Positions 2,432-32,721 of a DNA stretch of 64,000 bases are shown here, piece after piece; position 1 is the stretch's first letter; each line of letters opens with the position of its first letter. Made by a program: the position numbers and the translations under genes. The stretch comes from Schaalia sp. HMT-172 (GTDB lineage Bacteria; Actinomycetota; Actinomycetes; Actinomycetales; Actinomycetaceae): contig NZ_CP130058.1 of the NCBI RefSeq assembly GCF_030644365.1, positions 2,170,001 through 2,234,000 of the forward strand. Reading direction: 5' to 3'. The notes below the pieces were generated by a model. The model was not told the origin of the DNA. It saw nothing but the letters and a program-made list of their open reading frames with translations, and searched no databases.

Positions 2432-4135
2432 CTAAATAGCACCTCCTTGGGCGTCGCCCAAGCTCGCCTGCGGCGCCGCTTCGTCCGCCGACGCATCCGG
2501 CTGAGCGGAGGCAGGCGGCATCCACTTCGCCCCGGGATCGCAGGGAGCCGAGGGCGCCCCCATGGCGTTCGGGGCACCGGGCGCAAACGGGGCACCGGGC
2601 GCAAACGGGGCGCCGGGAGCGCTCAGCGCGACCCCAACGGTCGGAGCAAACGGCGCACCGGGCGCGCCCATGGCATTCGGGGCGCCGGGCGCAAACGGGG
2701 CACCGGGCATCCCCGGACCCGCGGGAGGCATCGGCCCCCACGGGCCCATGGGCGCCACGGGCAGCGCCGGAAGCGGCAGCGCCGACGCGGTGCGCGCCAC
2801 CAGCCAGCGCAGCACGCGCTCTGCGGGACCACGCGTGGCACCCATGACATCCGAGACGACGCATCCGATCCCGATGACCGCCCACACGCCGAGCGCGATC
2901 AGCCCGGCAACGGCGACACCCACCGACCTCACACCGACCAAGCCAAGCGTCAGGAAGACGGCCGCGAAGACCAGCGTCTGCGAGAGGTAGGCGGTCATGG
3001 AGCGTCGGCCAATCGCACTCAGGAACGAGCGAACGGCCCCCAGTTCCTGTCTCGGGGCCTCGCCCACCTGCGCCGTGGCCTCGCCCACCTGCGCCGGGGC
3101 CTCGCCCACCTGTGCCGGGGCCTCGCCCACCTGTGCCACGGCCTCGCGCGGACCTCCCCCCACGAGGGCCAGCAGCGCCAGCCATCCGCAGGCGCCCGCG
3201 ACGCCCGTCGCATGGTAGAGAACGAAGGTCCCCCCGACGGACCACACCTGCGCCCAGTCCAGCTGTCCCATCGCGTAGGGCAGAGCACCGAGCGCCCCGA
3301 CGAGGAGCCCCACACCGGCGATCACGCACAGGGCGCCCCGGTGCCCCCTCGGATCCTGCAGCGCCCCCCAGCGCGCGACGCCCACGCCGATCATGACGCA
3401 GGGAACAACGAGGGACGTCAGTGGCGTCAGGAGGGTGGAGACGATCCACGAGCCGAACGACGTGAGAGGGTAGGTGGCCCTCAAGACTGACGGGCCGTGA
3501 TACTCGAGGTTCATCAGGCCTGCACCCGCGGCCTCCGCCATCGCGCCGAGGGACAGGAGGCTGAGCGCCGCGACGCACACGCCAACCACGACTCGTGGCC
3601 ACGAGCGCCGCATGACGATCAGCTCCGCGCACATCACCGCGACCAGGCCGTAAGCACCAATAATGTCGCCCGAAAAAACGAGGCTATGGACGGCACCGAT
3701 CACGATCATCCACCAGCCGCGGCGGCGGATCAGGCGCGAGGCCGCGCGGCGAGCGCGAGCTTCCACGGCCTCGTTGAAGATGTGCCACTGCATGGGAGTC
3801 CACCCGGCGCTCAGCTCGCGGGGCAGGGGATCGAGCGCGGCGCGGCGCTCACGCTCGATCGTGCGCCGGGCCATGATCACCATGCCGAAGCCGAAGAGGA
3901 TCGAAAAGAGGGGGTATGCGCGGCGATCGACGAGCATGGCGCGCACGAGGAACCACCACTGGTCGGCGCTCGTCATCGCGTCGAGCGCCGCAAAACCGGC
4001 CCTGGGGTGCTCCGGGAAATAGCTCACCCAGAAGGGCACGTTCGCGAGGGCGATGAGGGCGAGCATGAAGCCTCGCGCGACGTCGGGCGCCGGGAAGCGC
4101 ACCTGGCGCTCTCCGGTGAAGGACAGGGTGGACAC
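2432..4135 (-). CDS. DUF418 family membrane protein with repeat-rich C-terminal tail
   Basis: Multi-pass membrane protein of the DUF418 family (related to YeiB); function unknown, and transport of a small molecule is only a guess. The GTG at 4135 is used because AAAGG lies seven bases upstream. The first ~420 residues carry about ten hydrophobic helices and family stretches such as PDVARGFMLALIALANVP and PLFSILFGFGMV. Two low-complexity insertions follow. One is a four-copy QVGEAPA repeat (DNA 3056-3139) between helices. The other is a long tail made of APGAPFAP / APNAMGAP repeats (about 2550-2750). At 567 residues it is longer than typical ~400-residue members, and the excess is mostly these repeats. 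It stands alone between two intergenic gaps. Confidence 0.8.
   Translation of the reverse strand: MSTLSFTGERQVRFPAPDVARGFMLALIALANVPFWVSYFPEHPRAGFAALDAMTSADQWWFLVRAMLVDRRAYPLFSILFGFGMVIMARRTIERERRAALDPLPRELSAGWTPMQWHIFNEAVEARARRAASRLIRRRGWWMIVIGAVHSLVFSGDIIGAYGLVAVMCAELIVMRRSWPRVVVGVCVAALSLLSLGAMAEAAGAGLMNLEYHGPSVLRATYPLTSFGSWIVSTLLTPLTSLVVPCVMIGVGVARWGALQDPRGHRGALCVIAGVGLLVGALGALPYAMGQLDWAQVWSVGGTFVLYHATGVAGACGWLALLALVGGGPREAVAQVGEAPAQVGEAPAQVGEATAQVGEAPRQELGAVRSFLSAIGRRSMTAYLSQTLVFAAVFLTLGLVGVRSVGVAVAGLIALGVWAVIGIGCVVSDVMGATRGPAERVLRWLVARTASALPLPALPVAPMGPWGPMPPAGPGMPGAPFAPGAPNAMGAPGAPFAPTVGVALSAPGAPFAPGAPFAPGAPNAMGAPSAPCDPGAKWMPPASAQPDASADEAAPQASLGDAQGGAI
3056..3139. repeat. 21-bp tandem repeat, four copies, inside the DUF418 gene
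   Basis: Unit GGCCTCGCCCACCTGYGCCG plus one base repeats four times in frame. It encodes a seven-residue repeat (QVGEAPA) in a loop of the DUF418 protein. The length is a multiple of three, so copy number could vary without breaking the frame. Confidence 0.9.
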
Positions 4136-4159
4136 TCGGTTTCCTTTCACTGCGCACAC

Positions 4160-4217
4160 GTGCCCTCTCGGGCACACGGAGGGGGCGAGGCCGGGGAACC
4201 TCCCAGGACTCGCCCCC
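4160..4217 (-). terminator. Two stacked hairpins after the 4232-4957 gene
   Basis: GGGGGCGAG (4181-4189) pairs with CTCGCCCCC (4209-4217), and GTGCCC/GGGCAC (4160-4175) forms a second small stem. They lie just downstream of the stop codon on the minus strand. There is no T run, so termination is inferred only. Confidence 0.45.
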
Positions 4218-4231
4218 TGTCGATGCGTCGG

Positions 4232-4957
4232 TCAGCGGATCGCCGCCATCATGGCCTGCTGGGTTATGAGGCGCTGCTTCTTGCCGGCACGCACGATGAG
4301 GACGATGCCGACAATCACCGCGACGAGGCCTAGGACGCCGACGATAGTGGCCCACACGAATGACATGATGAAGGCCATCATCATGTCGTCGACTTTCATG
4401 GGGAAGGCCATCAGTTCCGCGTGCGCCGGCATGCCCTCGCACGACAGCTCATAGCGCCCCGCGGGCACCATATCCGTGCTGAACATGCTTCGGTCCGTCG
4501 CGCTGTAAGCCCTCAGCTGGTACTCGGCGCCGGTCGAGTCCTTGAAGGAACAGGACGAAGCCTCACCGCCGCTGATCATCACCGAGTACGGACCGGTTTT
4601 CTCCACCGTGACGGAACCTCCATTGTGCAGGTTTGTACCCTCGGAGAACTTCTCAAACGAGCCCCCCACCCCGTTGGCCAGCGTCACGAACATAACGGCC
4701 GGGGCGACGAAAGACATGACAATGATGCCGACGACGAGCGTGATCACGCCGGGGACTCGGCTCGGCATCTTCGGGAGCTGGACGGCGACGGGGCCGCCCC
4801 CATACCCGGCGCCCTGGTAGCCCGGCGAGGCGGCACCCGGATAGCCCGCAGGTGCGGCACCCGGGTAGTCCGTGGTGGGGTCAGAAGCGTTTTCACCGTA
4901 CTGCGGCCAGGGCGTGTTCTGATCGCCCGAGGCTCCATAGGGATTCGGATTCGACAT
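4232..4957 (-). CDS. Membrane protein of unknown function, paralogue of the next gene
   Basis: 241 residues, not assignable to a named family. Layout: a Pro/Gly/Tyr/Ala-rich cytoplasmic N-terminus (~60 residues with PGAAPAGYPGAASPGYQGA), a first membrane helix (~residues 72-97, VITLVVGIIVMSFVAPAVMF), an extracytoplasmic domain of ~100 residues, a second helix (~200-225), and a short basic tail ending RLITQQAMMAAIR. The outer domain has two cysteines (SSCSF and YELSCEG) that could form a disulphide. The neighbouring gene at 5158-5811 has the same plan, the same Cys pair and a similar tail, so the two are tandem paralogues. GAGGAAGG lies about 12 bases before the ATG. Confidence 0.75.
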   Translation of the reverse strand: MSNPNPYGASGDQNTPWPQYGENASDPTTDYPGAAPAGYPGAASPGYQGAGYGGGPVAVQLPKMPSRVPGVITLVVGIIVMSFVAPAVMFVTLANGVGGSFEKFSEGTNLHNGGSVTVEKTGPYSVMISGGEASSCSFKDSTGAEYQLRAYSATDRSMFSTDMVPAGRYELSCEGMPAHAELMAFPMKVDDMMMAFIMSFVWATIVGVLGLVAVIVGIVLIVRAGKKQRLITQQAMMAAIR

Positions 4958-5101
4958 GGACGTATGCCTTCCTCGTGGAATGTTGTTCCAGCATAGCAAC
5001 GCAGCACGCGTCGTGAACAGCGCGCCCGCGTCAGCGACACGCATTGATGACTCTCGCCGGTCCCCATGTCCTCCTTCGGGCCGCAGCGCGGGCGGACGCC
5101 A

Positions 5102-5144
5102 AAGGGGACGAGGCCCGGCAGACTTTCCCCGGCCTCGTCCCCTT
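5102..5144. terminator. 14-bp perfect stem built from the dispersed GGCCTCGTC motif
   Basis: 5102-5115 (AAGGGGACGAGGCC) pairs exactly with 5131-5144 across a 15-base loop. It lies directly downstream of the gene ending at 5158 (minus strand). Its right arm contains an exact copy (5127-5139) of the 13-mer seen elsewhere in the window. Confidence 0.65.
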
Positions 5145-5157
5145 CTCGACAGGCGGC

Positions 5158-5811
5158 TCAGCGCGCTGCTCTCATCGTGGCTTCGCGCATAATGAGGCGA
5201 CGCTTGCCGTTCACCTTGACCAGGAGGACGATGCCGACGATCAGGACGATCACGCCGACAACACCGACGATGCTTCCCCACAGGAACGGCATCGTAAAGG
5301 TATCCCTCACGACCTCGGGAGTCGTGTTGTATGCGGTGATGTTATCGGTGCTGGGGATAGCCGTGCAGTACAGCCGGTAGGACCCCTCGGGAACGTCAGA
5401 CGCCATGTACACGCCCTCATCGCGTTCATAGGGCACGAGCTCGTAGCTCACGTTGGCACCGATGAGCGAGCAGGAAGGATTCTTGTCCGCGTCGCCCCTC
5501 ACCATGAAGTGGCCGTCAGCGGTCACGGTGACGACGCTGTCATTGGCGGTGGTGCCACCCTTGATCGACCCGCCTTCAGTACCGGCAAGAGCGGCGAACA
5601 TCATGGCAAACGTAACGATCGGCGCAATGACGACCATCAGTACGACGCCGAGGACGAGCGTGGTGACGGCGCGGCCGCGACCGGGCAGCGTCGGCGCGGC
5701 CACCGGCGCGGGAGCACCGTAGCCCTGCGGGGCTGGACCACCCGCGTAGGGAGCGCCGTTCGGGGGCACCGCATGGGGCTCGCCCGAGGGACCGTGGGAG
5801 GGAGTTGACAT
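5158..5811 (-). CDS. Membrane protein of unknown function, paralogue of the 4232-4957 gene
   Basis: 217 residues with the same architecture as its downstream paralogue: Pro/Gly/Ala-rich N-terminus (~50 residues), helix 1 (~55-85, AVTTLVLGVVLMVVIAPIV), an outer domain of ~95 residues with two cysteines (NPSCSL and YRLYCTA), helix 2 (~180-202, GSIVGVVGVIVLIVGIVLLV) and a basic tail ending RRLIMREATMRAAR. The start at 5811 follows AAGGAATAGGC; the in-frame ATGs further upstream have no ribosome site. A hairpin terminator separates the paralogues, so each is probably transcribed on its own. Function unknown. Confidence 0.75.
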   Translation of the reverse strand: MSTPSHGPSGEPHAVPPNGAPYAGGPAPQGYGAPAPVAAPTLPGRGRAVTTLVLGVVLMVVIAPIVTFAMMFAALAGTEGGSIKGGTTANDSVVTVTADGHFMVRGDADKNPSCSLIGANVSYELVPYERDEGVYMASDVPEGSYRLYCTAIPSTDNITAYNTTPEVVRDTFTMPFLWGSIVGVVGVIVLIVGIVLLVKVNGKRRLIMREATMRAAR

Positions 5812-5886
5812 GCCTATTCCTTTCCGTTGAGATAAGCGGCTCAACACACTATACATGTGCAATCAAACACCGTGCGCTCAAGCAGC

Positions 5887-5917
5887 TCGTCGCCGCCCCC
5901 ACGGGGATCGGCGACGA
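5887..5917 (-). terminator. Hairpin downstream of gatD
   Basis: TCGTCGCCG (5887-5895) pairs with CGGCGACGA (5909-5917), with an inner CCCC/GGGG stem. It lies 46 bases after the gatD stop on the minus strand. No T tail is visible. Confidence 0.4.
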
Positions 5918-5962
5918 ACCAAAGGGCCGGGGCAGTGTTTCGGCCGCCGGCTCAGGGAAGGG

Positions 5963-6703
5963 TTAGGACAGCTGGACGCCCGCCAGTCGCTCGGCGCGCA
6001 GCTCGGCGACGCCGGGCACCTCGAGGGGTTCCAGCGCGGCGCCGGTGGCGCGCTCCAGCAGCAGGTCCGCCAGTTCGGGATTGCGGGCCAGAGCGGGCCC
6101 GTGCATATAGGTGGCGATGATAGAACCCTGGACCGCGCCGTCGTAGGCAACACGATCCGGCTCACGGCCCTGCGGCGTGCCGTTGCCGACGCCCGCGACG
6201 ACGCGGCCGAGGGGGGCCGCATCGGGCCCCAAGACGGTGCCGCCGCCGTGATTCTCGAAGCCAGTGAGGGGCTGGGTGAGGCCGTCAAGGAGAGGAACGG
6301 TCACGAGCTCGCCGATGGCGCGGTGCCCCTGCGGCTCGGTCGTAATGTCGAGGACGCCCATGCCGGGAACGCGCAAGCCGCGCGCATCCTCGTACCAGTG
6401 GCCCAGGACCTGCAGGGAGGCGCAGATCGCCAGGAGGGGGCGGCCCGCATCGAGGGCCCGAGACAGGCCCGAGGTGCCGCGGAACTTGTCGGCCGCCAGC
6501 GCCTGCGCGGTGTCCTCTCCCCCACCCAGCGTGTAGATGTCGAGGCTGTCGGGGATGTCCTCGGTCAGCCCGACGTGGACGACCTCGGCCTCGATGCCGC
6601 GCCTGCGGGCTCGCTCAGCCAGAATCAGGGCGTTGCCCGTGTCGCCGTAGGTGCCGAGCACCTCGGGCATGAGGACACCAATTCGCAGGGTGGAAGCGCT
6701 CAC
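5963..6703 (-). CDS. gatD: Lipid II isoglutaminyl synthase, glutamine amidotransferase subunit GatD
   Basis: Class I glutaminase that releases ammonia for amidation of D-Glu in the lipid II stem peptide by its partner MurT, at the cytoplasmic face of the membrane. CobB/CobQ-type glutaminase fold: N-terminal GTYGDTGNA, LGGGEDTAQ, the nucleophile Cys94 in AICASLQVLG, ENHGGGT, and the histidine in the C-terminal YMHGPAL. The GTG start at 6703 overlaps the murT stop by 4 bp (GTGA), and GAAGG lies eight bases upstream. Length (246 residues) fits the family. Translational coupling to murT is expected, as in other Gram-positive bacteria. Confidence 0.92.
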   Translation of the reverse strand: MSASTLRIGVLMPEVLGTYGDTGNALILAERARRRGIEAEVVHVGLTEDIPDSLDIYTLGGGEDTAQALAADKFRGTSGLSRALDAGRPLLAICASLQVLGHWYEDARGLRVPGMGVLDITTEPQGHRAIGELVTVPLLDGLTQPLTGFENHGGGTVLGPDAAPLGRVVAGVGNGTPQGREPDRVAYDGAVQGSIIATYMHGPALARNPELADLLLERATGAALEPLEVPGVAELRAERLAGVQLS

Positions 6704-8010
6704 CGCTTGCCTTCCTTTCGGTCGAGCACGATCTTGAAGTCGCGCATTGCCGTGTAGTTGAGGAGTACCTCGACGCGGCCGGGCTCGCACAGGGCCAGGG
6801 CGTCCATGGGCAGAGCGACGAGGTCGCAGTGGACCCCCTCGTATTCGAGGCGCACGGCCAGGTCGGCGCCGCGCTCACCGCAGGCGATGACGCGCCTGCC
6901 GGGCCGGTTGACGCCGGAGAAGTCCACGTCCCACAGCCACGAGAGATCCTGTCCGTCGGGGATCTGGCCGTTGACACCGATGACGACCTGGTCGACGCGG
7001 GGGTCGACCATCGTCATGGCTTCCTGCCAGCCTGCGGGGTTCTTCGCGAGCATGAGGCGCGCCTTGCGCCCATTCACGTCGTGGACGGAGTAGCGGCCCG
7101 CGACTTCGGTGACGGAGCTGACGGCTGCCGCGGCTGCTGCCGGGTCGATTCCCATGGCGACCGCGGCGGCGACGGCCTGGGCGGCGTTGCCGAGGTTGGC
7201 GCGTCCGGGGAGCTTCAAGTCAAGGGGGACCGCCACGTCGCCGGGCCCATGCAGGAGGGCGCGCGGCCCCTCGGGGGCCAGTTCGACGTCGCTCAGCCAC
7301 CAGTGGGGGGTGGGGCGGCTGACGAGGTCGGGAAGCTCCTCCCCGTCGAAGGCAGGGATCAGGTGCCAGTCCTCGCCGCTACGAACGACGCGGCCGCCGC
7401 GGGGGTAGGCGGCGGAGTCGCCGCCCCATCCGGCGCCGGCGGCGACCCACACGACGCGGGGGTTGTCCGCGGCAGCGGAGACGATGAGGGGGTCGTCGCA
7501 GTTGGCGACCACGACAGCGTTCGGGTGCGCGGCGGCGCCCGCGCGCAGGCGCTTTTCGACCGTGCCGATCTCGCCGACGCGGTCGAGCTGGTCGCGCGAG
7601 AGGTTGAGGTAGACGAAGACGTCGGGGGCGACGTCCGCAGCGACCGCTGGCACGTGCATTTCGTCGACTTCGAGGGCGGCGCGCGAGGCCCCCTTGCCCT
7701 GCATGAGGGCGGCGATGACGCCGGAGGTCATGTTGTCGCCGTTGATGTTGGAGGCGACGGGTCCGGCGCTCTCGAGGGCGGCGCGGACCATGCGCGTCGT
7801 CGTGGACTTGCCATTCGTTCCGGTGACGATGACGGAGGAGTAGGGGGCAGCCAGCTCGGCGAGGAACTTCGGGGAGATGCGCAGGGCGACCTCCCCGCCA
7901 ATCATGCCTCCGGATCCACGCCCGAGGGCCCGGGAGGCGAAGCGGGCGGCGGCGCCGGCCGCGTTGGCCACGCGCGAGCGGACCGAGAGGTGATGCGATG
8001 ATGTCGTCAT
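6700..8010 (-). CDS. murT: Lipid II isoglutaminyl synthase, Mur ligase-like subunit MurT
   Basis: ATP-dependent Mur-ligase-type subunit that, with GatD, converts the D-glutamate of lipid II to D-isoglutamine. P-loop TGTNGKSTTTR at about residues 63-73, then Mur-ligase stretches (INGDNMTSG, EVDEMH, LNLSRDQLDRVGE) and the C-terminal DUF1727 domain (LAKNPAGW, GVNGQIPDGQDLSWLWDVDF). In the zinc-ribbon insertion of the family, the usual CPxCG is replaced by YPRGG (about residue 207) and no second Cys pair is seen, so the zinc site appears lost. The start ATG has no clear ribosome site. A TAACCT box about ten bases upstream suggests a leaderless message. Confidence 0.92.
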   Translation of the reverse strand: MTTSSHHLSVRSRVANAAGAAARFASRALGRGSGGMIGGEVALRISPKFLAELAAPYSSVIVTGTNGKSTTTRMVRAALESAGPVASNINGDNMTSGVIAALMQGKGASRAALEVDEMHVPAVAADVAPDVFVYLNLSRDQLDRVGEIGTVEKRLRAGAAAHPNAVVVANCDDPLIVSAAADNPRVVWVAAGAGWGGDSAAYPRGGRVVRSGEDWHLIPAFDGEELPDLVSRPTPHWWLSDVELAPEGPRALLHGPGDVAVPLDLKLPGRANLGNAAQAVAAAVAMGIDPAAAAAAVSSVTEVAGRYSVHDVNGRKARLMLAKNPAGWQEAMTMVDPRVDQVVIGVNGQIPDGQDLSWLWDVDFSGVNRPGRRVIACGERGADLAVRLEYEGVHCDLVALPMDALALCEPGRVEVLLNYTAMRDFKIVLDRKEGKR

Positions 8011-8075
8011 GCATCCAGGTTAGCGCCTGCGGGGGCACGCTCGCGCCGTCGGGGCCCGTGCTACACGCCCCGTGG

Positions 8076-8088
8076 GACGAGGCCGGGG
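8076..8088 (+). repeat. Dispersed 13-mer GACGAGGCCGGGG
   Basis: Exact copy of a motif found nine times in the window. This one is solitary, with no pairing partner nearby. Confidence 0.7.
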
Positions 8089-8448
8089 CACGGCTGGGCG
8101 GAGCTGGCGAGTGCGCGACACGCCGAATGGCACCTGGCCTGCACAAATAGTGCCGCATTGCATATCGACGTTATCCACGCCATGTCACTGTGAGCGCATC
8201 GATATGTCCCACCGGTTAATACACGCCCTGCCCGAGACGACCCATGGGGCGGGCAGAGTCGAAATTCTGCACATTTCCAAGGAAAAAATCTCCCCGACAA
8301 CAAACGCGCAGGTCAGAGACTATTTGGGGAAAAATGTTGCGGATGAGACGCACGCAGTTTTCGGACTGCGTGCACATTTGTGCGAAGTGGCGGCGACACC
8401 GATTATCGACTACCGAAACCCGCCGTGACCTGGTAAAACTGTTCTCAG

Positions 8449-8557
8449 CAGGCGAGAGCCTGTCGCCTGTTCCAGGCTTCGATCGCGGATCCTGTGTGCC
8501 CCCGGATCCACGATCGAATTACGCTGCGGGACTCATCCCTCGGGTGGGTCCCGCAGC
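8449..8557. repeat. Cluster of three successive hairpins
   Basis: Stem 1: CAGGCGA/TCGCCTG (8449-8469). Stem 2: 8478-8492 with 8504-8518, 14 of 15 bp paired. Stem 3: GCTGCGGGAC/GTCCCGCAGC (8523-8532 with 8548-8557) with an inner ATCCC/GGGT stem, followed by TCCTTGTT. Either a structured RNA ending in a terminator or a remnant of palindromic elements. No known RNA family was recognised. Confidence 0.6.
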
Positions 8558-8780
8558 TCCTTGTTACCTCACTGTTGAGGCGCCACCACAGTAGCCACTA
8601 TCACCGTCGCTGCCGCTGCGCGACGTTGTCCTTGCCTACGGAACCGCTGCCACTGCCAGCGTATCCGGGTAACTCCCTCCCACGTCCGTCTCCCACGCCA
8701 CCTCCATCTCTGCGCGTCATCCTCCCTTGCCCGCCTCCGTCTGCGTTCGTCCCGCGGCCGCGCCAGTGTCCGTGCGCGGG

Positions 8781-25708: not shown

Positions 25709-27283
25709 TCACAGGAAGGACGTAATGATCGGCAGGAGCAGGATCTTGATGATGATCGCGAAGGCGAAGAGGGTCGCGTAGGCCGCCTCGATGCGCTCGT
25801 CGGTGACGCGGGCGTCGGCGGCCTGCAGGACAGCGGGCTGGCCGAGGAACCCCGCGATGCCGCCGGCGGCGCGCGCGGAGGACAGGCCGATAAACTTCGC
25901 GCCGAGGGCCTGAACAGCACAGCACACGCCGACCATGACGGCTGCCAGGACGGCGGCGCGCCAGCCGTCGTGGCTAGTGAGAAGGCTCGCGAATTGGGGG
26001 CCGGCGTTCAGGCCGAGGGCGGCGAGGAAGAGCATGAGGCCGATCTGTCGGATCGTCAGGTTCGCGGCGGCGGGCAGGGTCCACACGAGGGGGCCGGTGC
26101 GACGCAGGGCACCGAGGAGCATGCCGACGATCAGGGGGCCCGCGGCGGCTCCCAGCTGGAATCCCTGGCCGCCCGGCAGCGGGAAGGAGACGATACCGAG
26201 CAGCAGGCCCAGGACGAGGCCGATGCCGAAGGCCATGCCGTCCACCTCGGCAACGCGGCGCTCGGAGTCACCCAGCCACTCGGCGATATCCTCGAGTTCG
26301 TCCGTGGGGACGACGACGGCGACGTGGTCGCCGAGCTGGAGGTCGAGGTCGTCGCGGGCCAGGAGGTCCAGGTCCCCTCGGCGCACGCGCGTGATGACGG
26401 CGCCGAAGCGCTTGGTGACGTTGAGCTCGGAGACGCTGCGGCCGGCGACGTCGGGGTTGGACACGACGATGCGCTCGAAGGCGAGGTCGGAGCGGTCATC
26501 CTCGAGGTTGTGGTCGAGGATCTCGCCGACGAGGGACGCAGCCTCCTTGATGGACGCGGGGTCGCCGACCATGACGACATGGTCGCCGGGCAGCAGGTCC
26601 TCGCCTGGAGCTGTGACGCGGGTACGGCCGTCGCGACGCAGGTAGGACAGGCGCACGCGCTGATCGCGCCACGCGCCGATGTCGCGCGTGTTGATGCGCT
26701 TGGACACGTGCACGCTGACAGCTTCGAGAGAGGCACCCGCGAGGGAGGGCGTGTCCTTGGGACCCAACCACTTCCTCGTCACCGTGATGGTCACGATGAG
26801 GATGCCCCCGATGACGCCGATCGGATACCCGAAGGCGTAGCCGACCGCCGCGTTCGGATCCCCCGTCAGGCGGGTGGCCGTATCGAGGGCGGGGGCGGCC
26901 GTCAAGGCGCCCGTGAAGAGACCCGACGCAAGGCCGGACGACAGGCCGAGGAGGCGGCCTCCCACGAGCGCGATGACCGCGCCGACGATGCACACGACCG
27001 TGGTGAGGGCCAGGAGGTTCGTCTGCTTGCGAAGGTCCTGGAAGAATGTGGCACCCGCCGAGATGCCGACGCAGTACACGAAGAAGGCCAGGCCCATCGG
27101 CTGGACGATCGACATGTGGGTGCTGACGACCTCGGGGTGAATGGCCGACACCGCGAGGCCGACAAACAGCGCACCGGCTGCTCCGAAACGCAGCGGCCCA
27201 ATCCTGATCGCCCCGATCGCCGCCCCCAACGCGACAACGACAAACAGCGCGAGTAGGGGCGACGACGAGAAGAGAGCAGCCAT
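25709..27283 (-). CDS. AspT/YidE-type transporter with two RCK_C domains
   Basis: Integral membrane exchanger of the aspartate:alanine antiporter family; substrate unknown. 524 residues. Five N-terminal helices with the duplicated Asp-Al_Ex segment (GLAFFVYCVGISAG, TGALTAAPALDTATR), two cytoplasmic TrkA-C (RCK_C) domains in the middle (about residues 195-350, with EDLLPGDHVVMVGDP and DLQLGDHVAVVVP), then the second set of helices (LMLFLAALGLNAGPQF, GIAGFLGQPAVL). The start at 27283 is taken at MAALFSSSPLL. AAAGGT abuts it, so a leaderless start is possible. Confidence 0.88.
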   Translation of the reverse strand: MAALFSSSPLLALFVVVALGAAIGAIRIGPLRFGAAGALFVGLAVSAIHPEVVSTHMSIVQPMGLAFFVYCVGISAGATFFQDLRKQTNLLALTTVVCIVGAVIALVGGRLLGLSSGLASGLFTGALTAAPALDTATRLTGDPNAAVGYAFGYPIGVIGGILIVTITVTRKWLGPKDTPSLAGASLEAVSVHVSKRINTRDIGAWRDQRVRLSYLRRDGRTRVTAPGEDLLPGDHVVMVGDPASIKEAASLVGEILDHNLEDDRSDLAFERIVVSNPDVAGRSVSELNVTKRFGAVITRVRRGDLDLLARDDLDLQLGDHVAVVVPTDELEDIAEWLGDSERRVAEVDGMAFGIGLVLGLLLGIVSFPLPGGQGFQLGAAAGPLIVGMLLGALRRTGPLVWTLPAAANLTIRQIGLMLFLAALGLNAGPQFASLLTSHDGWRAAVLAAVMVGVCCAVQALGAKFIGLSSARAAGGIAGFLGQPAVLQAADARVTDERIEAAYATLFAFAIIIKILLLPIITSFL

Positions 27284-27396
27284 ACCTTTCAGGGTACCTG
27301 TCACCCACATCTGCGAGCGTGAGGACCGGAGTAATCAACACGTTATAAGTCTCACGGGATAGGTATAGACTGCAACCAGAAACTGAAAGGATGGTC

Positions 27397-27975
27397 ATGT
27401 CTCAACCAGCACCCGGATGGTATCCAGATCCCGCAGGTACCCAGCGTTTGCGCTGGTGGAACGGCGGCATGTGGCTCGACCAGTACCAGCCCATGCCCGG
27501 CGCCGCGCCGCAGCAGGGCTTCCCCACCCAGCACAATGCGCCGGCTCAGCCGGGCCTGCCCGCCCAGCACAATGCGCCGGCTCAGCAGGGCCTGCCCGCC
27601 CAGCAGGCGGCCCCCGCTCCCGGCCCGCACATGCCCTCCGCCCAGCAAGCACCGACCGTGTCCGCCGACCCATACCACGCGTCGGGGACGACCCCGAGCT
27701 TCGGACAGTCGGACACCGGCATGTCCGGCGCGACGGCGCCCGCGGCTTCCACGAGCTCGAGCTCCGGGAAGGGGTGGCGCATCGGGACGGCCGTCGCGTG
27801 GGCGCTCACCGTCGTCTTCGCCGTGACCGCCGTGTACACCGGAATGCTCTTCGCGAAGGCGGGTCACGAGCTCTCCGATGCCGAATCCGAGCAGACGAGC
27901 GCGCAGCAAGAACTCGATCAGGCCAAGTCCGACCTTGATCAGGCAAAGAAGGAACTCGAGGAGGCACAGAAGTGA
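27397..27975 (+). CDS. Module 1 A protein: DUF2510, Pro/Gln linker, TM helix, coiled coil
   Basis: 192 residues. DUF2510 at about 5-30 (APGWYPDPAGTQRLRWWNG), a cytoplasmic Trp-rich domain of unknown role. Next is a ~90-residue Pro/Ala/Gln linker with a repeated PAQHNAPAQ-GLPAQ unit (36-bp DNA repeat near 27530-27607), one membrane helix (~127-150, AVAWALTVVFAVTAVYTGML), and an outward coiled coil to the C-terminus (QQELDQAKSDLDQAKKELEE). The ATG at 27397 has AAAGGA five bases upstream; an ATG two codons earlier overlaps that site. TATAGA at 27364 fits a -10. The last four bases overlap the start of its B partner. Confidence 0.82.
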   Translation: MSQPAPGWYPDPAGTQRLRWWNGGMWLDQYQPMPGAAPQQGFPTQHNAPAQPGLPAQHNAPAQQGLPAQQAAPAPGPHMPSAQQAPTVSADPYHASGTTPSFGQSDTGMSGATAPAASTSSSSGKGWRIGTAVAWALTVVFAVTAVYTGMLFAKAGHELSDAESEQTSAQQELDQAKSDLDQAKKELEEAQK

Positions 27976-28688
27976 GCTACGTTCCGATGCCGGCAGCCAA
28001 GACCGGCTCATCCTCCATGGCATTCAAGATCATGACGTTCGTCGGCGCGGCCCTGGCCGTGTGTCTCCTGCTCGCCAGCGTCCTCATGGGCTTCGGCGCG
28101 CATTCGCGTTCCGCCCAGGCTGAGGAAGCCCGGTCCAACGCCGAGTCGCTGCGTAACGAGAAGAAGGACACCGACACCGAAACGGCGAGCGTGCGCACGC
28201 AGATCACGGCCGCGAAGAGCAACAAGGCAGCCAACAAGTGGTGCGACGGCTTCACTGAGGCCGACTCCGGGTTCGTGGACCTGCTCAACAATGCCACTGC
28301 CCTGAACTTCAAGCCCGCCGACGAGCTCGCGGCGATCGCGAAGGCATGCCCGAAGAAGAAGGAGTTCGCGGAGGCGTTCCGCGACGCGCCAAGCCCCGCA
28401 TTCAAAGGCCAGGTGACGGATTGCACCCTATCGGGCAGCAACGTGACGATGACGGGAGAGCTGACCATCACCGACACGACGCTGAGCAACCTCGGGCCGA
28501 TGAACGTCACGGTCAACATCTTCCTCACACCGGGCGAGCCTTCCGACTCCGACACCCCCGCCGGCACCGCGTCCTTCACCATTCCGGCCGGAGGCAAGGG
28601 GACATTCACGCAGACCCTACCCTCCGGCGGACTGACAACAGGTTCGTGCGCATTCCGAGCCACCAGCCTCTGGCCCAAGGGCCTCTGA
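27972..28688 (+). CDS. Module 1 B protein: TM helix, coiled coil, four-Cys extracytoplasmic domain
   Basis: 238 residues, no named family recognised. TM helix at about 17-42 (MTFVGAALAVCLLLASVLMG), a helical segment (EEARSNAESLRNEKKDTDTE), then an extracytoplasmic domain with four cysteines (NKWCDGF, AKACPKK, VTDCTLSG, GSCAFRA) and a beta-rich C-terminus ending in SLWPKGL. The GTG start overlaps the A1 stop by 4 bp (GTGA), so the pair is translationally coupled. The Trp-Cys at the domain start and the aromatic-Pro ending recur in all four B proteins. Confidence 0.8.
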   Translation: MSYVPMPAAKTGSSSMAFKIMTFVGAALAVCLLLASVLMGFGAHSRSAQAEEARSNAESLRNEKKDTDTETASVRTQITAAKSNKAANKWCDGFTEADSGFVDLLNNATALNFKPADELAAIAKACPKKKEFAEAFRDAPSPAFKGQVTDCTLSGSNVTMTGELTITDTTLSNLGPMNVTVNIFLTPGEPSDSDTPAGTASFTIPAGGKGTFTQTLPSGGLTTGSCAFRATSLWPKGL

Positions 28689-28772
28689 CCCGATAGTTGC
28701 CCACCATCCGTCGGGCGACTAGAATTCCTGACCGAGCAAACGATTTTATTCGACCAGGGAAAGAGAGCCGCG

Positions 28773-29273
28773 ATGAGTGAGCCCGCGGAAGGCTGGTACC
28801 CGGACCCGAACGGTGCCCCGCACCTGCGCTGGTGGGACGGACAGGCCTGGACCGACTACGTCGAACCCTACATGGAGCCGACTTCCTCGGCCCACGCTGC
28901 CCCGGATCCCTCTCCCGGCGAGGCCCTAACCTCGCCGGGAGAGACCGACCAGCTGGAACACACCCCCGCACCGACGCCCGCGGCAGGCGACGGGGCCACC
29001 CACGCCTCGTCCCCCGCCCGTGTGGAACCTCAGCCCACGCGGGACGAACCCGCGCGCTCGGGTACCCTCACGTGGACCCTCGGCGCGGTCGCCTCGTGGT
29101 CGCTCGTCGTCATCTTCATCGTTGTCCTCGTCGTCGCATGGTCCCACCTGGGGGCCAGCGGCCGCGTCCACGACGAGGCGAAGGAACGCGCCCGCATCGC
29201 ACAGCAGGAGCTCGACACCGCCCAGTCCACGCTCGACGACATCAACCGACAGATCGAGGAGGCCCAGAAGTGA
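28773..29273 (+). CDS. Module 2 A protein: DUF2510, linker, TM helix, coiled coil
   Basis: 166 residues with the plan of A1: DUF2510 at about 5-30 (AEGWYPDPNGAPHLRWWDGQ), a Pro/Ala/Thr-rich linker (~31-98), TM helix (~105-127, SWSLVVIFIVVLVVAWSHLG) and coiled coil (ERARIAQQELDTAQSTLDDI) ending QIEEAQK, nearly the same end as A1. AAAGAGAG precedes the ATG, and 84 bp separate it from B1, with a possible TAGAAT -10 in that gap. Confidence 0.82.
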   Translation: MSEPAEGWYPDPNGAPHLRWWDGQAWTDYVEPYMEPTSSAHAAPDPSPGEALTSPGETDQLEHTPAPTPAAGDGATHASSPARVEPQPTRDEPARSGTLTWTLGAVASWSLVVIFIVVLVVAWSHLGASGRVHDEAKERARIAQQELDTAQSTLDDINRQIEEAQK

Positions 29274-29965
29274 GCGCCGCCCCCGCCCCCCTGCGCGCAG
29301 CGACCGTCGCCGGCGCCATCCTCGCCGTCATCTTCATCGTCCTCTCCGCGGTGGTGGGCGGTATCAACGTCTGGCGCACCCACTCGGCGGCAGGCTACGA
29401 CGAGCAGGCCGCCCAGGCTCAGTCCGACAAGGCCGCGCTCGACAAGCAGATCACCGAGGCCAAGACGCGACTCGACGCAGCCAACGTCCAGCGTGAGGCC
29501 AAAGAATGGTGCAATTCCGTGACGCGCGAGTCCTCCTCATCGATCCGCGACGCGATCAAGTCCTACGACTCCGCGACGCAGGCCGTCAAGGACACCATCC
29601 ACACCGAGTGCGCCGAGAAGGAGACGCTCGCCAACGCCCAGCGCACCCTCTCGGACGCTGACTTCGCCATCGCGATCGGCGAGTGCACGACCGACAAGGT
29701 CACGACCACGGTCACCGGCACGCTGACCGTCAAGTCCTCCAGCGCCGTCAACTCCCTGGGCCCCCTGGACGTCACCATCGTCGGATACACCCTCGAGAAG
29801 AACACCGCTTTCAACTCCTCCACCCCCTACCAGGCAACCACCAACACGACGCTGACCCCCGGCACGCCCGCCACCTTCACGATCTCGGTTCCCTACGATC
29901 CGAACATGTCGGATAAGACCGAATGCGGCGCCTCCATGGTCTCCTGGTGGCCCTCCAACATGTGA
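29270..29965 (+). CDS. Module 2 B protein: TM helix, coiled coil, four-Cys extracytoplasmic domain
   Basis: 231 residues. The GTG start overlaps the A2 stop by 4 bp. TM helix at about 9-33 (VAGAILAVIFIVLSAVVGGI), coil (QAQSDKAALDKQITEAKTRL), then the Cys domain: KEWCNSV, HTECAEK, IGECTTD, KTECGAS, ending SWWPSNM. Cysteine order matches B1. Sequence identity to the other B proteins looks low outside these landmarks, so the copies are old or fast-evolving. Confidence 0.8.
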   Translation: MSAAPAPLRAATVAGAILAVIFIVLSAVVGGINVWRTHSAAGYDEQAAQAQSDKAALDKQITEAKTRLDAANVQREAKEWCNSVTRESSSSIRDAIKSYDSATQAVKDTIHTECAEKETLANAQRTLSDADFAIAIGECTTDKVTTTVTGTLTVKSSSAVNSLGPLDVTIVGYTLEKNTAFNSSTPYQATTNTTLTPGTPATFTISVPYDPNMSDKTECGASMVSWWPSNM

Positions 29966-30044
29966 CCCCCAAACAATCACCCCACCCCTCCCGTCCGCAC
30001 GCAAATTCCCCTAAAATAGCGGGATAGCGCGAAAGGAGTCCACC

Positions 30045-30467
30045 GTGAGTAACCCCGTCGAAGGATGGTACCCAGACCCCGCCGGAACCGCCCAGCTGCG
30101 CTGGTGGGACGGATACTCCTGGACCGACGACTACCTCCCAGACGACACCGTGCAGGACTACGGCGCCGACTCCTACAGCGAGGCGGACCAGGCGTACACG
30201 GGGTTCCAGGACGCGGCGCCCACCTACGACGCGGGGTACCGGGACGCGGCGCCCACCGACGGCTCGGTTCCCCATGCGCGGCCCAAGGCCCCGGCCAAGC
30301 AGCTCGCGACCACCGTCATCCTGTCGCTGCTCATCGCGGCCTTCACCGTCGGCGCGATTGCGACAACCAGCCTGTTCCTCTCCGCCAACAAGGAGTACAA
30401 GCAGGCTGAACAGACGCTGAACCAGGCGAATGAGGACCTGCAATCGGTACAGGGAGACTCGAAGTGA
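30045..30467 (+). CDS. Module 3 A protein: DUF2510, short linker, TM helix, coiled coil
   Basis: 140 residues from a GTG with AAAGGAG seven bases upstream. DUF2510 at about 6-31 (VEGWYPDPAGTAQLRWWDGY), an acidic Tyr/Asp/Ala linker with a doubled GFQDAAPTYDAG / GYRDAAPTDG unit, TM helix (~84-107, TTVILSLLIAAFTVGAIATT) and coil (NKEYKQAEQTLNQANEDLQS). TAAAAT about 33 bases before the start could be a -10. Confidence 0.82.
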   Translation: MSNPVEGWYPDPAGTAQLRWWDGYSWTDDYLPDDTVQDYGADSYSEADQAYTGFQDAAPTYDAGYRDAAPTDGSVPHARPKAPAKQLATTVILSLLIAAFTVGAIATTSLFLSANKEYKQAEQTLNQANEDLQSVQGDSK

Positions 30468-31129
30468 GCACAGTGAATGCCGCCAACGCGGCCGCCAAGA
30501 AGGGCATGACGCCCCTGAACAAGGTCCTCGCCATCATTGCCGTCGCCATGGCAGCCATCACGGCCGTATTCGGCGCTCTGGCGGGGCTGCGCTTCTACCA
30601 GGCCCGGCAGATGAACGCGGAAGCCGAGCGCGTCACCGCCCAGGCCCAGTCGATTCGCGTCTCCTCGTGGTGCGCCAAGGTCACGCCGGACAACGTCCCC
30701 CGCATCGATCAGATCTACGGGGAGTACCGCGCGTTCGAGCAAGAGATGCGCGACGCCGTCGACGCCGAATGCCCCGGGCGCGTCAACGCCGCCTACATGG
30801 TGAGCACCTACCGGGCCGCGGACATGTTCACCGCCTCAATCGAGTGCAAGACCATCAAGGACAACACCGCGGTCTCCTGCACGGGAACGGTGACCACGAA
30901 GACCGAGAAGGTCCCCTCCCTGGCCAACTACTCGAATACGACGGTGAAGCTCTCCCTCGAGGTTGGCACCTCACAGGGCTTCATAATCCCCGCGCATTCG
31001 ACCCCCGACGTCGTCACGGTGACGGTTCCCCCATCGGGCAGCACCACCGTCGAGTTCGAGACGAGTTACGACAGCGCGTGGGGCGATTTCTACAAGGTTC
31101 CGGTAACCTCCTTCTTCCCCAACGACTAG
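30464..31129 (+). CDS. Module 3 B protein: TM helix, coiled coil, four-Cys extracytoplasmic domain
   Basis: 221 residues. The GTG overlaps the A3 stop by 4 bp. TM helix at about 21-45 (VLAIIAVAMAAITAVFGALA), short coil (ARQMNAEAERVTAQAQSI), outer domain with SSWCAKV, DAECPGR, IECKTIK and AVSCTGT, ending SFFPND. The fourth cysteine of B1/B2 near the C-terminus is missing and an extra one follows the third, so the disulphide pattern probably differs between subgroups (B1/B2 versus B3/B4). Confidence 0.8.
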   Translation: MSTVNAANAAAKKGMTPLNKVLAIIAVAMAAITAVFGALAGLRFYQARQMNAEAERVTAQAQSIRVSSWCAKVTPDNVPRIDQIYGEYRAFEQEMRDAVDAECPGRVNAAYMVSTYRAADMFTASIECKTIKDNTAVSCTGTVTTKTEKVPSLANYSNTTVKLSLEVGTSQGFIIPAHSTPDVVTVTVPPSGSTTVEFETSYDSAWGDFYKVPVTSFFPND

Positions 31130-31147
31130 ACCCCTCAAGGAACTCCC

Positions 31148-31594
31148 GTGACGACACCCGTGCCCGGCTGGTACCCCGACCCTCAGGGTCACCCCCGCCA
31201 GCGCTGGTGGGACGGCGCCCGGTGGACCGAGCAGTATCGGCACACGAGCGGCGTCGGCGCCCCGATTTCCGGCCCGCCCGCGGCCATCGCCACGAGTCGG
31301 AGGGCGGCCCACGAGGCTGCCGCCCCCATCCCGGCACCTCCCATCGCGGCCACGGCCTCGTCCCCCCGGCCCCGGACTGAGGGCGCCGCTCAACCCCCTA
31401 TCCCGCAGCCGCCCGCCCCCAGGAGGCTCACGCGCCTGCCGGTCGTCCTGATGGTTCTGTCCCTGTTCTTCGCCGTCAGCGCGATCATCGCCGCGCAGAC
31501 GTACTCGACGCTCGGCACGCAGCACCAGCGCGCCGAGCAGGAGGTCACAGACGCACAGACCTACCTCCAGAAAGTCAAGGAGCTCTTCCGATGA
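31148..31594 (+). CDS. Module 4 A protein: DUF2510, Pro-rich linker, TM helix, coiled coil
   Basis: 148 residues from a GTG 18 bp after B3. DUF2510 at about 5-29 (VPGWYPDPQGHPRQRWWDGA), a Pro/Ala-rich linker (which includes a partial copy of the dispersed GGCCTCGTC motif at 31351-31365), TM helix (~97-118, PVVLMVLSLFFAVSAIIAAQ) and a coil ending YLQKVKELFR. AAGGAA precedes the start. The short gap suggests modules 3 and 4 share a transcript. Confidence 0.82.
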   Translation: MTTPVPGWYPDPQGHPRQRWWDGARWTEQYRHTSGVGAPISGPPAAIATSRRAAHEAAAPIPAPPIAATASSPRPRTEGAAQPPIPQPPAPRRLTRLPVVLMVLSLFFAVSAIIAAQTYSTLGTQHQRAEQEVTDAQTYLQKVKELFR

Positions 31595-32277
31595 ACGCCC
31601 GGAAGAAAGCGGCGACGCCGCGCGCCGCCGCGAAGAAGCGCCTCGGGCCCGCCCACGTGATCCTTCTCGTCATCACCATCGTCCTGGGGCTCGTGGCCGC
31701 TACGATGACGACACTCGCCGTCATGCGGGCCAGGGAGGTGCACGCCGTGCGCTCCGAGGCCGCGCAGACGCGCCAGGAGGCCAACGACTTCTACGCGACG
31801 CACTGGTGCAATCTGATCGCACCGACGATGAGGGAGCGCATCGCCCGCCACTACAAGGAATACCTGCGGGCCACACCCGAGCAGCGCTCCGCCGTCGACG
31901 CGACGTGCCCGGGCAACGTCGCGACCGCCTCCGTCATCGCACAGTACAAAATCTTCAAGAACATCGAATTCAGCGACTACTCCTGCAGCCCTACCGCGGA
32001 CAGCACCGCGTTCGCGTGCACCATCGACGTGGCCATCGTGAACGAAGACCTCATCAAGAGGCTCCCCGAGTTCAGCTCGTTCGATATGACCATCACCACA
32101 TACTTCAAGACTGACGAGGGCAACCCCCACTTCTCGCCGGATTTCAAAACGACCGAGACCGTCACCATGACGTTCGACGCACAGGGCCACGGCACCGCCC
32201 AGTTCGAGACGAAGTACCAGAAGAACTGGGGCGCAAACTACGCCCTGTCGATCAGCGATTACTACCCGAACGTGTAG
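31591..32277 (+). CDS. Module 4 B protein: TM helix, coiled coil, four-Cys extracytoplasmic domain
   Basis: 228 residues. The ATG overlaps the A4 stop by 4 bp (ATGA). A basic N-terminus (NARKKAATPRAAAKKR), TM helix (~20-43, HVILLVITIVLGLVAATMTT), coil (EVHAVRSEAAQTRQEANDF), outer domain with THWCNLI, ATCPGNV, YSCSPTA and FACTIDV, ending DYYPNV. Its cysteine spacing matches B3. Last gene of the array; the S4-protein gene converges on it with only 21 bp between. Confidence 0.8.
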   Translation: MNARKKAATPRAAAKKRLGPAHVILLVITIVLGLVAATMTTLAVMRAREVHAVRSEAAQTRQEANDFYATHWCNLIAPTMRERIARHYKEYLRATPEQRSAVDATCPGNVATASVIAQYKIFKNIEFSDYSCSPTADSTAFACTIDVAIVNEDLIKRLPEFSSFDMTITTYFKTDEGNPHFSPDFKTTETVTMTFDAQGHGTAQFETKYQKNWGANYALSISDYYPNV

Positions 32278-32298: not shown

Positions 32299-32721
32299 TC
32301 AGTAGTGCTCGTGCGAGTCGTAGCCGCGCAGCCGATCCAGCTCCCGGCGCTCCTTCTTCGTGGGGCGCCCGCTCCCCCTCTCGCGCATCGCGATGGGGAT
32401 GTGCACGCGGGGCCGCTCGGGCGTGCGGTCGTCGTAGGCGGTGCGCGCCTGGGGGTAGGACACGCGCTTGGCCAGCAGCAGGACGACGCCAAGGACTCGA
32501 TCAAAACCCTCGATGCGCAGGCGCACCTCGTCGCCCACGCGCACTTTGTAGGCGGCCTTCACGGGCTCACCGTTAACACGCACGTGCCCGGCGCGCACGG
32601 CGGCGGTGGCCTGTGAGCGGGACTTGAGCTGGCGGGTCGCCCACAGCCACGTGTCGACGCGCACGCTGGCCGAGGCCAGGGCGCCGGGCGGGATGACGAC
32701 CGTGTCGGGTGCTTCACTCAT
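32299..32721 (-). CDS. S4 domain RNA-binding protein (Hsp15/HslR-like)
   Basis: 140 residues. S4 domain at about 18-80 (VRVDTWLWATRQLKSRSQAT, HVRVNGEPVKAAYKVRVGDEV), followed by a basic C-terminus (RPTKKERRELDRLRGY) as in HslR, which binds stalled 50S subunits with nascent tRNA. Nine bases separate it from the FtsX permease gene upstream, so it may be the last gene of that operon. Role inferred from family only. Confidence 0.88.
   Translation of the reverse strand: MSEAPDTVVIPPGALASASVRVDTWLWATRQLKSRSQATAAVRAGHVRVNGEPVKAAYKVRVGDEVRLRIEGFDRVLGVVLLLAKRVSYPQARTAYDDRTPERPRVHIPIAMRERGSGRPTKKERRELDRLRGYDSHEHY

Follow-up and report, generated by a model that had tools for sequence, protein, structure and literature searches.

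Tandem A/B membrane gene pairs in Schaalia and the apparent exchange of a B1 ectodomain among close relatives

FtsL and FtsB (DivIC) of the divisome are two single-pass proteins whose outward helices pair, and Rz-type spanins are encoded by an overlapping gene pair. Actinobacterial proteins with DUF2510 (PF10708) combine this N-terminal domain with a low-complexity linker and a transmembrane (TM) segment. For myxobacterial TraA, the polymorphism of one locus decides recognition between strains, according to an excerpt of PMC6372800. Here, we analyzed a 64,000-nucleotide stretch of Schaalia sp. HMT-172 (the window; NZ_CP130058.1, positions 2,170,001 to 2,234,000), which contains four tandem pairs of a DUF2510-type gene (A) and a gene for a four-cysteine protein (B). 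Judged from aligned sequences, close relatives exchange the B1 ectodomain as an allelic cassette with sharp edges. We give an even chance to the reading of the A/B pairs as heteromeric receptors made of single-pass membrane proteins, with a swappable recognition head close to the membrane. Receptors with strain-specific polymorphism have been described before; the A/B architecture and its family are not described within the open-access literature searched.

Eight consecutive genes on the forward strand form the four pairs (Table 1), at the place given by a preliminary description made from the sequence. The analysis confirmed all eight genes at their coordinates and the 4-bp overlap within each pair (GTGA, GTGA, GTGA, and ATGA for pairs 1–4). 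An alternative in-frame start of A1 is possible 6 bases upstream of 27397. Each A exceeded the Pfam gathering score of DUF2510 (34.6–45.3 bits, cut-off 24) and had clear heptad periodicity in its coil (p ≤ 0.003), which bears out the described order of DUF2510, linker, TM segment, and outward coil in every A of the window. The identities of A2, A3, and A4 to A1 were 37, 31, and 35%. Each B protein of the array has a single TM segment at its N-terminus; its ectodomain opens with Trp–Cys, contains four cysteines, and ends in aromatic–Pro. B2, B3, and B4 are 28, 22, and 17% identical to B1, in line with the earlier remark that linkers and B domains diverge while the architecture is kept. The cysteine layout had to be corrected from one pattern to two. 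B1 and B2 have a long stalk and the fourth cysteine near the C-terminus; in B3 and B4, the stalk is short and the fourth cysteine comes soon after the third. In the 2.53 Mb single-contig genome, a genome-wide search placed every DUF2510 match (exactly four) and every B match (also four) within the array. Since all these matches lie here and the arrangement recurs in the genus, the array is more than a product of chance.

Nucleotide comparisons of relatives localized the exchange. The window B1 is the orthologue of the B1 with the exchanged head. When genomes G085 and G153 were compared across the pairs in windows of 300 bases, identity was 97–100% everywhere but in the B1 head (64–67%); the flanks were mostly at 94–100%, interrupted by one window at 90% and by an insertion, and their ends aligned poorly. 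G042 is about 90% identical elsewhere, yet 84–90% identical to the G085 B1 head. G139 has the G153 head (synonymous divergence, dS, of 0.13), and the G009 head is related but distinct (dS 0.80 vs 0.12 in the stalk). For G085–G153, the nonsynonymous divergence (dN) and dS were 0.020 and 0.017 in the B1 stalk, 0.546 and 1.456 in the B1 head, and 0.003 and 0.018 in the B2 head. In the surrounding 200 kb, the median identity of 1777 windows was 98.3%, and the lowest window (58%) lay in the B1 head; 61 windows fell under 75%, most of them in one tandem-repeat stretch. At G085:C1:504201-509600, a tandem-repeat stretch with steps of about 61 bp did not align cleanly between the two genomes.

The exchange was also visible in a protein collection. 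At least 127 B1-type proteins fell into eight stalk classes (85%) and nine head classes (75%) among the matches listed. Within the same listed matches, stalk class 0 (at least 103 proteins) bore four head classes (84, 11, 5, and 3 proteins), and head classes 1 and 2 recurred on other stalk classes. In some pairs of collection proteins, the N-terminal parts were 91–97% identical and the heads 35–42%. The reverse case rests on one protein, P0151, whose head was 99–100% like those of three others at an N-terminal identity of 58–64%; further reverse pairs had heads at 89–93% and N-terminal parts at 58–63%. Pairs with N-terminal parts of at least 90% and heads below 60% amounted to 125 of 2063 for B1, 0 of 735 for B3/B4, and 0 of 98 for B2, and with heads below 80% to 207, 120, and 17, respectively; the pairs do not count as independent observations, and B1 was the target in one of three collection searches. 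The matches nearest to the window were milder (B1 heads 83–95%, N-terminal parts 90–98% in full-length matches), with one outlier at 58 and 60%. B4 variants (P0013 vs P0008; P0016, P0018, and P0019) look mosaic, with 77% in the N-terminal part beside 99% in the head and with common blocks of changes around residues 170–189.

A variable domain exchanged on a constant anchor, by which polymorphic recognition receptors are told, was thus found in the B1 of relatives. The exchange of the head with the rest fixed suggests a recognition system facing a strain-variable thing. The idea of the preliminary description that the four copies differ in specificity gains support from B1, where the head is exchanged and the stalk kept. 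Among the five genomes compared, the dN/dS ratio (omega) of the heads was 0.04–0.16 for B2 vs 0.30–0.55 for B1 and B3, with one B3 ratio undefined. There seems to be a division of work among the copies, with B2 conserved and the B1 and B3/B4 types diversifying. Omega exceeded 1 only for A1 (1.37, 11 changes) and the B1 stalk (1.21, 5 changes) of the G085–G153 pair.

To relate A to B, we used the genus scan, in which 26 of 35 Schaalia genomes matched B at E 1e-6 and nine did not. Twenty-five of them had matches above 60 bits (50 genes), and one (G173) reached 31.5 bits. The B gene overlapped the upstream A by 4 bp in 47 of the 50 cases, followed it after 3 nt in one, and was fused to it in two. 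We read 49 of these genes, at 26 loci; the iterated B profile strayed to A coils and further TM proteins, and pair counts use only matches above 100 bits. The distance matrix of A (TM segment and coil) correlated with those of the B stalk (r = 0.93) and the B head (r = 0.91), values reached by none of 2000 permutations. The nearest A and the nearest B stalk in another multi-pair locus belonged to the same pair in 305 of 340 comparisons (116 expected). The outer-helix lengths of A and B were correlated as well (r = 0.88 for 47 pairs and 0.87 for 24 head clusters). This co-divergence and the matched lengths support a heteromeric bitopic A–B complex. That A and B belong together, as had been proposed, is upheld by the gene order, the distances, and the helix lengths alike. 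All 50 B genes above 60 bits follow or are fused to an A; six A proteins lack DUF2510, and the B-like gene of G173 has no visible A.

Several unusual members of the family were seen. In the two natural fusions (L052:9056-10039 and L053:9486-10439), DUF2510, linker, TM segment, helix, and B head share one open reading frame. The second pair of G161 (L104:3109-4302), at another locus, has the 3-nt gap and Phe–Cys in place of Trp–Cys. The B-like gene of G173 (L168:3798-4421, reverse strand) encodes a TM segment, a helix, and four cysteines and lies near a clpX-looking gene. Genus-wide, the fourth cysteine was C-terminal in 37 of the 49 B proteins read and mid-domain in 12, and five had more than four cysteines after residue 45.

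In the structure models, B is a predicted helical stalk followed by a helical hairpin and an Ig-like sandwich. The stalks of B1 and B2 are long helices in the AlphaFold2 models. A coiled coil had been claimed for every A and B; it holds for the four A proteins, and the four B stalks of the window lacked the heptad signal (p > 0.4). Mapping the variability by structure element gave no clear hot face. A match of B to a characterised family was looked for, and no Pfam or NCBIfam family exceeded its cut-off. A sequence search of the PDB with B2 as the only query had a best E of 0.19. Two collection proteins carry the precomputed Pfam accessions PF28006 and PF28028; a local library scan of one did not return PF28006. 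B adds a protein family without description.

DUF2510 itself is a dispensable part of A. Eight A proteins lacked the motif, counted on longest reading frames with uncurated starts, and two of these were set aside as doubtful: L059 is a truncated second copy whose partner B is identical, and at L061 a separate upstream reading frame holds DUF2510. The remaining six comprise five third-pair copies, in which residues resembling the pre-domain stretch remain, and L054. All six keep the TM segment, the coil, and the partner B; therefore, DUF2510 cannot be the functional core, and the earlier proposal of DUF2510 acting inside is unsupported as stated. Counted genome by genome, the A/B system accounts for all 43 DUF2510 matches in the genus (39 motif-bearing A genes, two fusions, the G161 pair, and one upstream fragment at L061). 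In the other genera of the family, 35 genomes had a DUF2510 match. We fetched 17 loci, and the 15 DUF2510 proteins read at 13 of these differ from A in architecture and C-terminus and have no B partner. DUF2510 thus gains a partner within one genus, Schaalia. In another genus, L098 (G035, 3863-8645) holds a tandem run of DUF2510–TM proteins with large outer parts in the same chain, possibly a parallel design without B partners.

The array was compared with the described systems named above. Unlike A/B pairs, FtsL/FtsB (DivIC) pairs have no large exchanged head. As a divisome pair, the proteins were rejected on score (A1 17.6 bits vs 42.45 for TIGR02209; B4 13 vs 50 for NF049847). A replacement of divisome genes was likewise rejected, as the genome has its own DivIC at C1:1910088 (78.4 bits), FtsL not being part of the genome-wide search. 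PHROG matches to Rz-type spanins were weak and covered only the TM segment and helix (A2 E 1.5e-4, B1 E 0.0022). The six flanking genes (permease, NUDIX, OsmC, S4, ABC ATPase, and one without a Pfam match) offer no phage lysis context, and a spanin function was dismissed; the A/B array also differs by its chromosomal locus common across the genus and its predicted Ig-like head. TraA resembles the array in the polymorphism of one locus; the array differs as a two-gene bitopic pair in tandem copies and in a Gram-positive envelope. None of the eight array proteins matched a PADLOC model at E 0.01, and anti-phage defence was set aside. The preliminary description knew of no such pair array, and we also found no paper in an open-access library searched for DUF2510, PF10708, and WYPDP. 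A term search of the main text of a transposon study (PMC12369343) returned neither 'DUF' nor 'hypothetical'.

The receptor reading rests on the gene overlap, the joint inheritance, the natural fusion, the matched outer-helix lengths, and the swap of the B1 ectodomain with the TM segment and stalk kept. A and B would assemble through their TM segments and side-by-side outer helices, and A would end roughly where the B domain starts. The B head, probably pinned by two disulphides, would bind something strain-variable. A would supply the cytosolic side, with a long flexible linker and usually DUF2510, and may anchor or cluster the complex. At a helix rise of 0.15 nm per residue, a helix of 27–49 residues (4–7 nm) and a head of 4–5 nm would keep the domain close to the outer face of the membrane. 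Due to this short predicted reach, a wall glycopolymer or a membrane-reaching agent, such as a phage injection apparatus or a bacteriocin, is a more likely ligand than the outer surface of another cell.

Several observations weigh against this reading. No head dN/dS exceeds 1 (highest 0.55), so diversification must rest on the exchange of old alleles. The 200 kb around the array contain six other non-repeat patches below 80% and about ten below 85%, and 18.5 kb of it did not align. G085 and G153 are separate genomes, held as different species. The collection lists hold the best 120 of 191 and the best 120 of 212 matches and may include assembly chimeras. B2 is not always fixed: with heads below 80% in 17 of 98 pairs (one at 100% vs 66%), B2 heads vary too, if less. 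The length match is weaker among long-coil pairs alone (r = 0.53, n = 35) and is hardly replicated, since coil length switched between long and short only once on the tree, which leaves one independent contrast and a test without power. A heptad signal (p < 0.05) was present in 39 of 47 A coils vs 10 of 47 B stalks, and this scarcity in B counts against a simple two-stranded coil.

Part of this evidence also bears on other explanations. If the heads were weakly constrained and drifted fast, the cassette pattern would simply reflect the homologous recombination usual in a recombining species. The omega values of the heads (all below 1), the six to ten other divergent patches, and the variable B2 heads of the collection fit this account, which we nevertheless consider very unlikely: B2 of the five genomes is strongly constrained, divergent heads keep their cysteines, predicted fold, and pairing, and identical head classes turn up on different stalks. 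A wall tether or scaffold is possible, if somewhat unlikely. The pairs would organise the envelope like the bitopic helices of FtsL–FtsB and hold a strain-variable wall polymer, with the head following the polymer type and no signal passed. Bitopic pairing with outward helices agrees with such a role, as do the weak FtsL-like matches and the predicted Ig-like fold, a type common to many carbohydrate-active proteins, and the dispensability of DUF2510 is easier to reconcile with anchoring than with signalling. However, all FtsL-like scores are far under the curated cut-offs in a genome that has its own DivIC, and the system is optional, as the nine genomes without a match show.

The heads may also be a target that an invading agent (phage injection apparatus, bacteriocin, or TM7x) contacts, with exchange as the escape; we regard this as unlikely. 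TM7x lives on S. odontolytica, so the genus includes a host of this agent, and the sharp cassette exchange would suit an escape. Passages of PMC12206443 propose a host receptor without a name and call host identification largely unknown. Set against this, the predicted stalk reach is short for a thick wall, and phage LC001 uses wall polysaccharide and teichoic acid for attachment, according to an excerpt of a 2026 review (PMC13414283). A viral scan with B2 as the query found no relative, a search that would test viral copies only. A connection with TM7x or phage is no more than a lead. The receptor reading can be extended to a strain-identity system of the Schaalia envelope, with B2 as a conserved core receptor and the membrane-proximal, Ig-like heads of the neighbours reshuffled among lineages as allelic cassettes on fixed A/B anchors. 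Each strain would show its own set, and a wall polymer or contact-delivered agent matching this set would trigger a response in the strain or serve to type it; this extension is decidedly unlikely in its full form. The locus adds an allelic envelope locus to a genus hosting the Saccharibacteria epibiont TM7x, and its exchanged heads pose the question of which outside factor differs so strongly between near-identical oral strains.

Beyond the genus, matches were faint. The phylum scan returned 52 of 396 genomes, including that of the window, with six candidates scored per genome. The other 51 reached at most 32.3 bits, mostly on the TM segment and stalk, as these matches are confined to the first 119 of 240 profile positions. 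The order scan (E 1e-6, ten candidates per genome) returned two of 248 genomes, both Schaalia. A first family scan matched 37 of 200 genomes, including 12 of other genera. Seven of these 12 were read: two matches were gone on re-search and four looked unrelated (DsbA-like, histidine-kinase-like, coil). G020, from another genus, encodes a TM protein with a cysteine-bearing outer part (L063:7861-8589, reverse strand) that weakly matched the drifted B profile. At the sensitivity of these sequence searches, the B family is confined to Schaalia. Two records under other names, L117 (Xylanimonas cellulosilytica 352_XCEL) and L119 (Sanguibacter keddieii 250_SKED), bear Schaalia-type arrays and seem misnamed.

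Table 1. Positions of the array genes, the promoter-like site, and the flanking genes in the window.
Feature	Position	Strand	Description
Asp-Al_Ex/TrkA_C permease (flank)	25709..27310	-	divergent; locus marker in relatives; Pfam
A1	27397..27975	+	DUF2510 (39.1 bits), long Pro/Gln/Ala-rich linker, TM, outward coil (heptad p 0.0005)
B1	27972..28688	+	TM, helical stalk, WC...C...C...C ectodomain, fourth Cys C-terminal
Promoter-like site TTGCCC-17-TAGAAT	28697..28725	+	ahead of A2, weak
A2	28773..29273	+	DUF2510, linker, TM, outward coil
B2	29270..29965	+	most conserved B among genomes compared; AlphaFold2 model: stalk, helical hairpin, Ig-like sandwich
A3	30045..30467	+	DUF2510, linker, TM, shorter coil
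B3	30464..31129	+	short stalk, fourth Cys mid-domain
A4	31148..31594	+	DUF2510, linker, TM, shorter coil; begins 18 nt past B3
B4	31591..32277	+	short stalk, fourth Cys mid-domain
S4-domain protein (flank)	32299..32721	-	Pfam

The promoter-like site in Table 1 is the sole sigma-70-like site found (one vs 0.4 expected). Given its place between B1 and A2, the four pairs may not form one operon. Most arrays of the genus occupy one site, with a divergent permease on one side and S4-domain and ABC genes on the other; the match of the upstream protein cluster to the permease was checked at G165, and Pfam served to check the flanks in the window. This cluster lay immediately upstream of the array in 15 of 26 loci; in others, including the window, the longest-frame rule had picked an antisense frame. 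Downstream, the first four genes included a large ABC-side protein in 16 of the 26 loci. Exceptional neighbours were found at L058, which is the second locus of G182, and around the second pair of G161. G042 is without the third pair of its relatives. We infer one ancestral pair, often still single, with an expansion to between two and four pairs within the odontolytica group. Six B-less genomes were read; the permease adjoins other genes in four of them, and the remaining two were unclear, one being partly masked. In one B-less genome (L134), a TetR-like gene and an MMPL-like transporter gene adjoin the same permease.

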